Below, piece by piece: positions 39,657 through 42,630 of a stretch of 64,000 bases of DNA. The stretch comes from Solimonas sp. K1W22B-7 (GTDB lineage Bacteria > Pseudomonadota > Gammaproteobacteria > Nevskiales > Nevskiaceae), in contig NZ_CP031704.1 in assembly GCF_003428335.1 (NCBI RefSeq), forward strand, positions 3,286,001 through 3,350,000, given 5' to 3'. The notes beneath the pieces were generated by a model. The model did not search any database, was not told the DNA's origin, and saw only the letters and a list, made by a program, of their open reading frames with translations. Positions within the stretch are counted from its first letter, which is position 1, and every line of letters begins with the position of its first letter. A program made the translations under genes and the position numbers.

Positions 39657-39980
39657 TCAGACGGTGAAGCTTTCGCCGCAGCCGCACTCGCCCTTGACGT
39701 TGGGATTGAGGAACCTGAAAGCCTCATTGAGCCCCTGCTTCTGGAAATCCAGGGTCAGGCCGGACAGGATCGGCAGATGCTCCGGGCTGATCACCAGCTT
39801 GGCGCCATGCTGCTCGAAGACTTCCTCGCCCGGACGAACATCGTCCGCATAATCAATGACATACGCGTATCCGGAGCAGCCGGACTTGCGCACGCCCAGG
39901 CGCAGGCCGAGGCCCTTGCCGCGGTTGGCCAGCTGGGTTTCGATGCGCTTTGCAGCGCTCGGGGTCAGTTGAATCGTCAT
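39657..39980 (-). CDS. iscA: A-type iron-sulfur carrier IscA
   Basis: HesB/IscA-family protein of 107 residues. The three conserved Cys are present: one in KSGCSGYAYVIDYADDV (near residue 35) and two in the C-terminal GECGCGESF. IscA-type proteins carry iron or assembled Fe-S clusters to targets. The start ATG 39980 overlaps the fused desulfurase stop by 4 bp (ATGA). NPNVKGECGCGESF favours IscA over SufA or ErpA. It is the last gene of the reduced isc operon. Confidence 0.93.
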   Translation of the reverse strand: MTIQLTPSAAKRIETQLANRGKGLGLRLGVRKSGCSGYAYVIDYADDVRPGEEVFEQHGAKLVISPEHLPILSGLTLDFQKQGLNEAFRFLNPNVKGECGCGESFTV

Positions 39981-41512
39981 GCCACACTCATCTGTCGTCT
40001 CAGGGCCAGGACGGCGTCCTCGCCCAGCAATCCACAATGGGCCTTGTCATCGCTTATTTCAAGCACGCTACTGAGATCGCCCGCCGACAGGCGGAGTTCC
40101 TCGGGCCGGCGGCCCTCGAGCCAGGCGGCCAGCCATTCCCCCACGGCGATCGTCACCGGGCAGCCGTAGGCCTGGAACGCGGCGCGGGCGATGCGCCCCT
40201 GCTCCAGATCGGCCTGCAGGCGCAGGCGCAGGGCCCCGGCCGGGCTGCCGGCAGTGCCGGCAAGGGCGCCATCCGGCAGGGTCGCGGCATGGACCGGCGC
40301 GGCGAAGGCCGCCCAGACCGGCGCGGAATAGCCATGGGCGTTGTGCGGCGGCGCCACCGGCGCGGCCGGCTCCGTGCCGGCGATGCGGCGCAGGGTCCGC
40401 ACCGCCTGGGCCACGCGCGCGGCGGCCTGGTCGACCTCCGCCTCGCCGGTGGCGCGACCGAGCGAGAAGCGCAGCGAGGCGCCGGCCAGCTCGTCATCAC
40501 GGCCCAGTGCGCGCAGGACGTAGGAAGGCTCGCGCGTTGCCGAGGAACAGGCCGAGCCGCTGGAGACCGCCAGGTCCCCGAGGCTGGCGCGCAGGCTCTC
40601 GCCTTCCACGCCTGCGAAGGACAGGTTGAGTATTCCGGGCGCACGCTGAAGCGGATCGCCGTTGAGGTGCACCCCCGGCAGCGCCTGCAGCTGCCGTTGC
40701 AGCCGGTCGCGCAGGGCCGAAAGCCGCTCGCGGTCGGAGGCCAGGCGCTCGGCCGCGACGCGGCAGGCTTCGCCGAACCCGGCGATCTGGTGCACCGGCA
40801 GCGTGCCGGAGCGCATGCCCTGCTCATGGCCGCTGCCGTGCAGCTGCGGACTCAGGCGCGCCCGTGGGCGCTTGCGCACGAACAGCGCACCGATGCCCTG
40901 CGGCCCGTAGAGCTTGTGCGCCGACAGCGACAGCAGGTCGATGGGCACATGCGCGAGGTCGACCGGCAGCTTGCCGGCTGCCTGTACGGCGTCCACATGG
41001 AACAGGATGCCGCGTTCGCGCAGACGCGGCGCCAGCGCCTCCACCGGGTTGATCACGCCGGTTTCGTTGTTGACCCACATCAGCGACACCAGGGCGGTGT
41101 CCGGCGCCAGTGCCGCCAGCACCTGCTCCACGGCGATGCGACCCTGCGCATCCGGCTTGAGCCAGGTCACGCGCAGGCCCTGCGCCTCCAGGTGGCGGAC
41201 CGGATCGACCACCGACTTGTGCTCGCTGCGGGCGGTGACCAGGTGGGCGCCGCGCAGGCCGCGGAATTCCAGTGCGCCCTTGAGAGCGAGATTGTTCGAC
41301 TCGGTGGCGCCGGAGGTCCAGACGATCTCGTCGGCTTGCGCGCCGATGAGCGCCGCCACCTGGGCGCGGGCGCGCTCGACGGCGGCACGCGCCGCGTGGC
41401 CCCAGGCGTGGTCGGAAGCCGGGTTGCCGAAACCGCCCTCCAGCCAGGGCAGCATGGCCTGCAGCGCAGCCGGGTCCAGCGGCGTGGTGGCGGCGTGGTC
41501 GAGGTAGATCAT
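39977..41512 (-). CDS. Cysteine desulfurase fused to a degenerate IscU-like domain
   Basis: Fusion of 511 residues. Residues 1-380 are a complete NifS/IscS-type PLP enzyme, with LDHAATTPLDP, the Schiff-base Lys200 in SAHKLYG and the active-site Cys322 in SSGSACSSATREPSYVLRALG. After a Pro/Ala linker, residues about 394-507 align with IscU: YSAPVW, GSPAGALRLRLQ, YGCPVTIA and AHCGLLGEDA. Compared with IscU, the first ligand Cys is Gly426, the Asp two residues on is Leu428, and the LPPVK chaperone motif reads ISDDK; the other two Cys (451, 493) remain. It is coupled by 4-bp overlaps to the desulfurase before and iscA after. Desulfurase activity is likely; scaffold function is doubtful. Confidence 0.9.
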   Translation of the reverse strand: MIYLDHAATTPLDPAALQAMLPWLEGGFGNPASDHAWGHAARAAVERARAQVAALIGAQADEIVWTSGATESNNLALKGALEFRGLRGAHLVTARSEHKSVVDPVRHLEAQGLRVTWLKPDAQGRIAVEQVLAALAPDTALVSLMWVNNETGVINPVEALAPRLRERGILFHVDAVQAAGKLPVDLAHVPIDLLSLSAHKLYGPQGIGALFVRKRPRARLSPQLHGSGHEQGMRSGTLPVHQIAGFGEACRVAAERLASDRERLSALRDRLQRQLQALPGVHLNGDPLQRAPGILNLSFAGVEGESLRASLGDLAVSSGSACSSATREPSYVLRALGRDDELAGASLRFSLGRATGEAEVDQAAARVAQAVRTLRRIAGTEPAAPVAPPHNAHGYSAPVWAAFAAPVHAATLPDGALAGTAGSPAGALRLRLQADLEQGRIARAAFQAYGCPVTIAVGEWLAAWLEGRRPEELRLSAGDLSSVLEISDDKAHCGLLGEDAVLALRRQMSVA

Positions 41513-42630
41513 GCCGTGGTGAAACTGCCGAGCGCCTGCAGGAACTGGGCAACCTCGGCTGCGGTGTTGTCCTTGCCGAGGCTGACGCGGATCGCGCCCT
41601 TGGCGGTGTCGCGGTCCAGACCCATGCCGATCAGCACGTGGCTGGGCTCGCCCAGGCCGCTGGCGCAGGCCGAGCCGCTGGAAACGGCGAAGCCCTTTCG
41701 ATCCAGCTGCATCAGCAGGGCCTCGCCGTCGTAGCCGGCGAGCGCGAACTGCACGGTGTTGGGCAACCGCGTGGCAGTCTCGCCGAAGATGCGGATGCCG
41801 GGGATCTGCCGCAAGCCCTGCTCCAGCTGCTGGCGCAAGACCTGGGCCTGTCCGGCGCGCGCCTCCAGCTCCTGCAGGGCCAGTTCGGCGGCGACGCCGA
41901 AGCCGACGATGCTGGCGACGTTCTCGGTGCCGCCACGCAGGCCGCGCTCCTGGGCGCCGCCGTGGTGCAGCGGCGAGAGTTCGACATGGCTTTTCACCAC
42001 CAGCGCGCCGATGCCCTTGGGGCCGTAGATCTTGTGGCTGGACAGGCTCATCAGGTCGGCCTGCAGCGCCTCGAAGTCCACCGGGATCTTGCCGGCGGCC
42101 TGCACCGCATCGACGTGCAGCCAGGCGCCTGCGGCATGGACCATTGCAGCGGCCCGGCCGACGTCCTGGATCACACCGGTTTCGTTGTTGGCCCGCATCA
42201 GCGACACCAGCCGCAGCGGGCCGGCGGCAAGCTGGCGTTCGAAGGCCGGCCAGTCGATCAGTCCGTCGGCGTCCACCGCCACCGGTTCCACCTGCCAGCC
42301 GCGCAGCGTCAGCGCCTCGGCGGCCTCCATCACCGCCGGGTGCTCGGTGATGCCGTAGAGCAACCGCGTCGGCACAGCGCGCTCGGTGACGCCCTTCAGT
42401 GCCAGGTTGTTCGACTCGGTGCCGCCGGAGGTCCAGAGGATCTCGCCGGGCTGGGCGTTGATCAGCTGCGCCACCTGGGCACGCGCCTGCTCGACCGCGT
42501 CGCGCGCGGCGCGGCCGTAGCGGTGCAGCGAGGAGGCGTTGCCGTAGGGGCCCGACAGGTAGGGCAGCATGGCCTCCAGCACACGCGGATCGACGCGGGT
42601 GGTGGCGTTGTGGTCGAGGTAGGTGGGCAT
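41509..42630 (-). CDS. iscS: Cysteine desulfurase, IscS/NifS type
   Basis: PLP enzyme of 373 residues that takes sulfur from cysteine. It shows LDHNATTRVDP, TEHPAV with the PLP-stacking His, ANNETGVIQ, HVDAVQAAGK, the Schiff-base Lys200 in SSHKIYGPKGIG and active-site Cys322 in SSGSACASGLGEPSHVL. It is about 30 residues shorter than E. coli IscS, lacking the C-terminal extension that contacts IscU and ferredoxin. It overlaps the second desulfurase by 4 bp. The locus position between cysE and iscA matches iscS. Confidence 0.93.
   Translation of the reverse strand: MPTYLDHNATTRVDPRVLEAMLPYLSGPYGNASSLHRYGRAARDAVEQARAQVAQLINAQPGEILWTSGGTESNNLALKGVTERAVPTRLLYGITEHPAVMEAAEALTLRGWQVEPVAVDADGLIDWPAFERQLAAGPLRLVSLMRANNETGVIQDVGRAAAMVHAAGAWLHVDAVQAAGKIPVDFEALQADLMSLSSHKIYGPKGIGALVVKSHVELSPLHHGGAQERGLRGGTENVASIVGFGVAAELALQELEARAGQAQVLRQQLEQGLRQIPGIRIFGETATRLPNTVQFALAGYDGEALLMQLDRKGFAVSSGSACASGLGEPSHVLIGMGLDRDTAKGAIRVSLGKDNTAAEVAQFLQALGSFTTA

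Follow-up and report, generated by a model that had tools for sequence, protein, structure and literature searches.

Here, we describe a fused gene in a 64,000-nucleotide stretch of the genome of Solimonas sp. K1W22B-7 (contig NZ_CP031704.1, positions 3,286,001 to 3,350,000 of the forward strand), which we call the window and to which all coordinates below refer. A single open reading frame joins an IscS-type cysteine desulfurase to a C-terminal domain with the predicted fold of IscU. IscU, a widely conserved protein, is usually treated as a scaffold. The domain lacks residues of the IscU cluster site, in the window and across its order, and we refer to it and its relatives as pseudo-IscU. The features of the locus are as follows.

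39977..41512, minus strand: IscS-pseudo-IscU fusion gene, 511 residues (open reading frame call, Pfam)
40382..41509, minus strand: IscS-type cysteine desulfurase part, residues 2–377, without the C-terminal tail (aligned to 1p3w)
40547..40549, minus strand: IscS loop Cys322, equivalent to E. coli Cys328 (alignment of 17 fusions)
39980..40342, minus strand: IscU-fold domain, residues about 391–511, predicted to be dead as a scaffold (Pfam, phmmer, predicted fold)
40235..40237, minus strand: Gly426, at the IscU C37 position (alignment)
40229..40231, minus strand: Leu428, at the IscU D39 position (alignment)
40160..40162, minus strand: Cys451, C63 equivalent, in the motif YGCP (alignment)
40043..40057, minus strand: ISDDK (486–490), in place of LPPVK (alignment)
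40034..40036, minus strand: Cys493, C106 equivalent, with His492 at H105 (alignment)
39657..39980, minus strand: iscA, directly downstream of the fusion gene, ligand Cys 35, 99 and 101 intact
41509..42630, minus strand: IscS1, a NifS-like cysteine desulfurase directly upstream, forming a tandem pair with the fusion

A preliminary description, made from the letters of the window, had called the gene an IscS-IscU fusion, and this holds. Pfam places Aminotran_5 at residues 2–362 (E 4.7e-81) and NifU_N at residues 395–502 (E 1.1e-9, with 38.9 bits where the cut-off is 22) of the same frame, and a phmmer search of the C-terminal 132 residues against PDB chains matched IscU entries from both E. coli and human (E 5e-10 to 1.4e-9). 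Structure prediction, proposed earlier as a check, returned the IscU fold for the domain with high confidence. The domain had been placed at 39992..40333; the position was right, and the true extent is somewhat longer, at about 39980–40342. The desulfurase part aligns to residues 5–383 of E. coli IscS chain 1p3w and has both the class V aminotransferase fold and the loop cysteine, Cys322, which is invariant in an alignment of 17 fusions. The window’s genome is a single contig of 5.37 Mb, in which the fusion domain is the sole NifU_N match above cut-off. A SUF operon lies elsewhere in this genome, in the order regulator, sufB, sufC, sufD, sufS; no SufE was identified among the tested open reading frames beside sufS, the rest of the genome not having been searched for it.

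Alignment with MAFFT against canonical IscU sets Gly426 at C37, Leu428 at D39, Cys451 at C63, ISDDK at LPPVK (which we take to be the HscA-binding motif of IscU), and His492-Cys493 at H105-C106. This agrees with the residue losses and the two retained cysteines claimed earlier: of the three cluster cysteines (C37, C63, and C106) the window domain keeps the last two, and both D39 and LPPVK are replaced. The alignment had also been called ungapped, which is slightly generous: Gly426 faces C37 in the best phmmer alignment listed, to 2kqk, but the four listed alignments to human- or mouse-type ISCU carry a two-residue gap at the place of C37; there is no Cys there either way. A sequence error at the named residues is unlikely because GSPAGALRLRLQ and YGCPV recur in the three relatives of the same genus, which are 83–84% identical; their DDK is preceded by Ser or Gly. 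These three have AQC where the window has AHC, placing Gln at the His position. Nearest among named relatives are Solimonas of the Nevskiales, at 83–84% identity. The domain scores 41.1 bits against the curated NCBIfam IscU cut-off of 192.4.

Our survey of the order covered 85 genomes. Of these, 78 have Pfam NifU_N matches, at 86 loci in all, and only two of these matches, to open reading frames of 341–346 residues that we take for NifU, reached the score of a real scaffold (177–178 bits). From the 86 loci we set aside two NifU-like loci (L083, L084), one without IscS linkage (L157), and six SufU-type loci (L085, L087, L121, L129, L150, L165), leaving 77 copies in 77 genomes. A profile built from diverse copies then found six more among the eight leftover genomes. 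Of the six genomes gained in this way, five lacked any Pfam match, and the sixth (G069) had just the unlinked L157. Pseudo-IscU is thus present in 83 of 85 genomes, and in both of the others (G004, G038) the contig breaks off within the second IscS. The search for the fusion across relatives that had been suggested earlier, run here on the order, showed that 24 of the 83 copies are fused to IscS and 59 are genes of their own. Fused or not, 80 of 83 copies lie within 300 bases of IscS or are part of it (74/77 in the first round and 6/6 later); for L138, IscS was not seen on the sequence piece examined. The iscA gene follows pseudo-IscU in 82 of 83 cases, and Cys 35, 99, and 101 are invariant in all 82 IscA copies.

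The loss of C37 is complete, at 83 of 83 copies. An Asp aligns at position 39 in three (L149, L154, L216), where the alignment of that motif may be off, and an exact LPPVK occurs in one (L220). Both C63 and C106 are retained in 58 copies, C106 alone in four (L137, L164, L220, L221), C63 alone in one (L112), and none of the three IscU cysteines in 20. The main group without them is a single genus (g21, 14 copies) with Pro at position 63; the 20 copies are L134, L141, L143, L145, L148, L152, L156, L158–L163, and L167, plus six. All 20 carry Cys at position 74, and most also at position 41. Pro is found at position 64 in 82 of 83 copies, giving the signature GCP in pseudo-IscU versus GCG in the aligned canonical IscU rows (L025, L026). 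The full C-D-C-C set is still there in the SufU-type and NifU-like proteins that these genomes also encode.

The partners of IscU are also missing. HscB, HscA, the isc ferredoxin, and frataxin were each over cut-off in 0 of 85 order genomes, the Solimonas genome included, with a positive E. coli control; the E limits were 1e-200 for HscA and 1e-20 for the ferredoxin, so that only true orthologues would appear. By these four partners, none of the 85 genomes would count as having an ISC system, and the earlier statement that hscA and hscB are absent extends to the order. Sub-threshold HscB matches occur in 62 genomes, and all those listed fall at model positions 2–61 and are J-domain-like. SufB is over cut-off in 82 of 85 genomes. 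That the domain is not a classical scaffold, as had been suspected, is therefore well supported order-wide, with C37 gone from every copy and the four partners not found.

The IscS side has changed as well. According to PMC2854127, E. coli IscU touches the IscS helix 309–316, Glu347, the end of helix 11, and the C-terminal helix 379–391, and removal of IscS residues 376–404 abolishes IscU binding. We measured the tail by alignment for 77 of the 83 order copies. Canonical IscS extends 17–18 residues past the tryptophan of the SPLW motif (25 rows), and unfused IscS of the order a median of 2 (53 rows, range 0–7); in the 24 fused rows, 11–36 residues lead from this tryptophan to the IscU-like domain. 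The IscS part of the Solimonas fusion lacks the IscU-binding tail.

The TusA site of IscS is altered in part. W45 is present in 25 of 25 canonical rows, and the 77 order rows have Arg in 44, Phe in 16, Gln in 6, and Tyr in 3; R237 is replaced by Gln in 51 of 77. The other positions are mostly retained (52 is Glu or Asp in 70 of 77, 55 is Arg in 62, 220 is Arg or Lys in 69), and E49 occurs in just 18 of the 25 canonical rows. In PMC2854127, the E. coli IscS change W45R brings both 5-methylaminomethyl-2-thiouridine and 4-thiouridine down to about 5%. Since W45 and R237 are replaced in most rows, sulfur for tRNA may take another route in this order, judging from sequence. Separately, we considered TusA-routed tRNA thiolation as the destination of the sulfur; it is weakened by the changes at W45 and R237, but positions 52, 55, and 220 are mostly kept.

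The domain is under selection. Within the genus (four species, six pairs each), the ratio of nonsynonymous to synonymous substitution rates (dN/dS) is 0.25–0.33 for the domain and 0.11–0.17 for IscS. Eight pairs in g21, where all three IscU cysteines are absent, gave 0.09–0.50, and four other pairs 0.10–0.71. We also compared sequence entropy at the IscU positions that touch IscS, taken from PMC2854127 (11 scored). Mean entropy is 1.00 at these positions versus 1.47 at 97 others (one-sided p 0.019), 0.72 versus 1.21 in the 58 copies with both cysteines (p 0.010), and 0.85 versus 1.21 in the 20 copies with none (p 0.037), with p values that are indicative only, given the shared ancestry of the rows and the lack of a control for buried residues. 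Contact positions 38, 40, 42, and 59 are highly variable; Tyr3 is absent in the 20 copies without IscU cysteines, and position 103 changes from Lys or Arg to Glu or Gln in most.

An IscS tree of 120 rows was built by quick search under LG+G4. It leaves 37 of 117 inner branches open, with several long branches flagged, omits 18 loci whose neighbouring IscS is missing or short as well as L033 (without an IscU domain), and uses by-eye entries for the C63 and C106 states of L175, L176, L177, and L185. A single branch (Shimodaira-Hasegawa-like approximate likelihood ratio test 98; the tree is unrooted) sets the 25 canonical rows apart from all others, so one change is enough to account for the pseudo-IscU type, which may have arisen in a single old event or in several. 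The order’s rows are not one group, with one row (L146) falling among others. Over the 114 labelled rows, the fused or split state changes at least 12 times; the minimum is 9 changes for C63 and 7 for C106. Because only 24 of 83 copies are fused and the state changes so often, the fusion itself is, by these sequence comparisons, incidental.

Outside the order, 13 fusions in metagenome bins named only Proteobacteria or Gammaproteobacteria keep C63 (13/13) and have lost H105 and C106. A Pfam search of 370 genomes of the class (five of the order) was followed by re-examination of 11 outside-order genomes with a best match weaker than about 1e-17; four of these have a degenerate IscU beside IscS, and the remainder were in some cases SufU-type and in some short pieces at contig ends. 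L058 likewise has a degenerate IscU next to IscS. The class figure is a lower bound because Pfam missed copies in five genomes within the order, and 51 class genomes without a Pfam match lay outside the better-profile search. Beyond the earlier description, then, the loss is order-wide and is also seen in some genomes outside the order, and it is accompanied by a shortened IscS tail and by a neighbouring IscA that is intact.

With an incomplete cluster site, absent partners, and SUF present, the domain is nonetheless kept, predicted to fold, under selection, and held beside or fused to IscS. Therefore, we consider it probable, if far from certain, that pseudo-IscU is a permanently docked subunit of IscS that shapes persulfide traffic and builds no clusters. 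What the analysis shows is the sequence with its residue losses, the fold prediction, the linkage, the selection, and the lack of partners; from these we infer the docking, the gating role, and an order of events. In a lineage with SUF, three members of the former isc operon, IscS, IscU, and IscA, would have stayed together as HscB, HscA, ferredoxin, and frataxin disappeared. IscU would have kept its fold and presumably its place on IscS and lost part of the site that builds [2Fe-2S] clusters, C37 going from every copy and the other two cysteines in some branches. IscS would have lost the tail on which IscU depends in E. coli, with gene adjacency or fusion holding the partner instead; repeated switching between split and fused states is expected of an obligate partner. 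The docked domain might stabilize or open the Cys322 loop, or it might cover the IscU face and thereby direct sulfur to other acceptors. The earlier proposal of a docking part is plausible, as the positions that touch IscS in E. coli vary less than the rest.

Several observations weigh against this. Because tail loss abolishes IscU binding in E. coli, docking would need another way here. The IscS columns that differ between canonical and order rows are not enriched at the IscU face (3/29 versus 28/402, p 0.33). One near-identical pair from another family of the order (L092/L099) has a dN/dS of 0.71, at a dS of 0.01. Finally, the 58 copies with both C63 and C106 keep more than a purely structural role needs, and the 20 copies with neither all have Cys74, so some thiol function may persist.

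The main rival for Solimonas is a persulfide relay of the SufE or TusA kind, in which Cys493 and Cys451 would take sulfur from Cys322 and pass it onward; copies lacking their equivalents would rely on a different thiol or have taken up a different role. In human ISCU, the C106 equivalent is a persulfide acceptor. Retention of both cysteines in most copies despite the universal loss of C37 speaks for a relay, Cys74 (and in most cases Cys41) could substitute where they are gone, and replacement of some TusA-docking IscS residues, such as W45, would leave room for one. Nevertheless, 20 copies have none of the three cysteines and still keep the domain and its place, so that a relay through the IscU cysteines cannot be the order-wide role; five further copies have one only, not always the same, and the 13 bin fusions retain C63 alone. 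The sulfur acceptor proposed earlier is possible in Solimonas because Cys451 and Cys493 remain there; overall we think the relay rather unlikely.

More doubtful is a second possibility, in which tail-less IscS, pseudo-IscU, and IscA would form a working minimal sulfur or Fe-S (iron-sulfur) module with the scaffold job moved to IscA. Pseudo-IscU would here merely dock IscA at the IscS persulfide, in parallel to SUF and without frataxin, isc ferredoxin, HscA, or HscB. The strict linkage and the intact IscA ligand cysteines allow it, though the gene order of the isc operon may alone account for the linkage by inheritance. An altered but working scaffold is very unlikely. Two cysteines and a His are still in the window, and a cluster on Cys451, Cys493, His492, and the IscS loop Cys322 would be enabled by the fusion; in the Archaeoglobus fulgidus IscS-IscU complex (4eb5/4eb7) the cluster is reportedly shared with an IscS Cys, and changes at IscU D39 stabilize clusters. 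Against it stand the Gln at the His position in the three same-genus relatives, C63 and/or C106 missing from 25 of 83 copies, and the partners absent from all 85 genomes beside the near-universal SufB. That the domain is a functionless, decaying remnant on the IscS C-terminus is hardly credible, for although it has lost scaffold residues, scores low in Pfam, and changes faster than IscS, the frame is open in 83 of 85 genomes, mostly as a gene of its own, with a dN/dS well under 1 in the genus and a confidently predicted IscU fold.

Among known systems, IscU (TIGR01999, PF01592) differs in having C37, D39, and LPPVK, in score (37–41 bits for the Solimonas domain against a cut-off of 192), and in its setting of HscA, HscB, isc ferredoxin, and frataxin. 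IscS (TIGR02006/NF010611) is the best match over fusion residues 2–378 and shares the loop cysteine, but the fusion falls under both equivalog cut-offs (493 versus 643 and 506 versus 548 bits), has changes at W45 and R237, lacks the tail, and bears an extra domain. SufU and SufE, the desulfurase activators of SUF, also count among the closest systems; against the C-D-C-C set, present in the six SufU-type order rows, the window domain reads G-L-C-C. The stand-alone IscS of SUF organisms such as Mycobacterium tuberculosis is similar in that isc is reduced beside a full SUF, as described in PMC10848736; unlike there, the Solimonas IscS keeps an iscU, in a form apparently dead as a scaffold, and iscA. 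Literature searches returned no match for an IscS-IscU fusion, a cysteine desulfurase fused to an IscU domain, or Solimonas iscS or iron-sulfur cluster, and no report of IscU without its cysteines among the matches listed (titles and starts of abstracts, with subscription papers and preprints outside coverage).

An order in which IscU persists with an incomplete cluster site provides a natural separation of its place on IscS from its scaffold role. The natural series of copies with two, one, or no IscU cysteines, fused or split, lets persulfide acceptance, docking, and desulfurase activation be tested separately. Furthermore, calling ISC from NifU_N or the IscU fold alone would overcount ISC systems.

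The surrounding genes show some further variation. Two desulfurase genes lie within 300 bases of each other, as IscS1 and the fusion do, at 31 of the 47 order loci with sufficient upstream sequence. In genus g7 (L132, L151), iscS and the pseudo-IscU gene are about 1.4 kb apart, and the gap in L132 holds a Si-specific NAD(P) transhydrogenase gene. One fused copy (L137) has no iscA and is followed, by eye, by apparent ndk and rlmN genes. The weak NifU_N match L157 in G069 is linked to neither IscS nor IscA, and the same genome carries a linked pseudo-IscU, L217.
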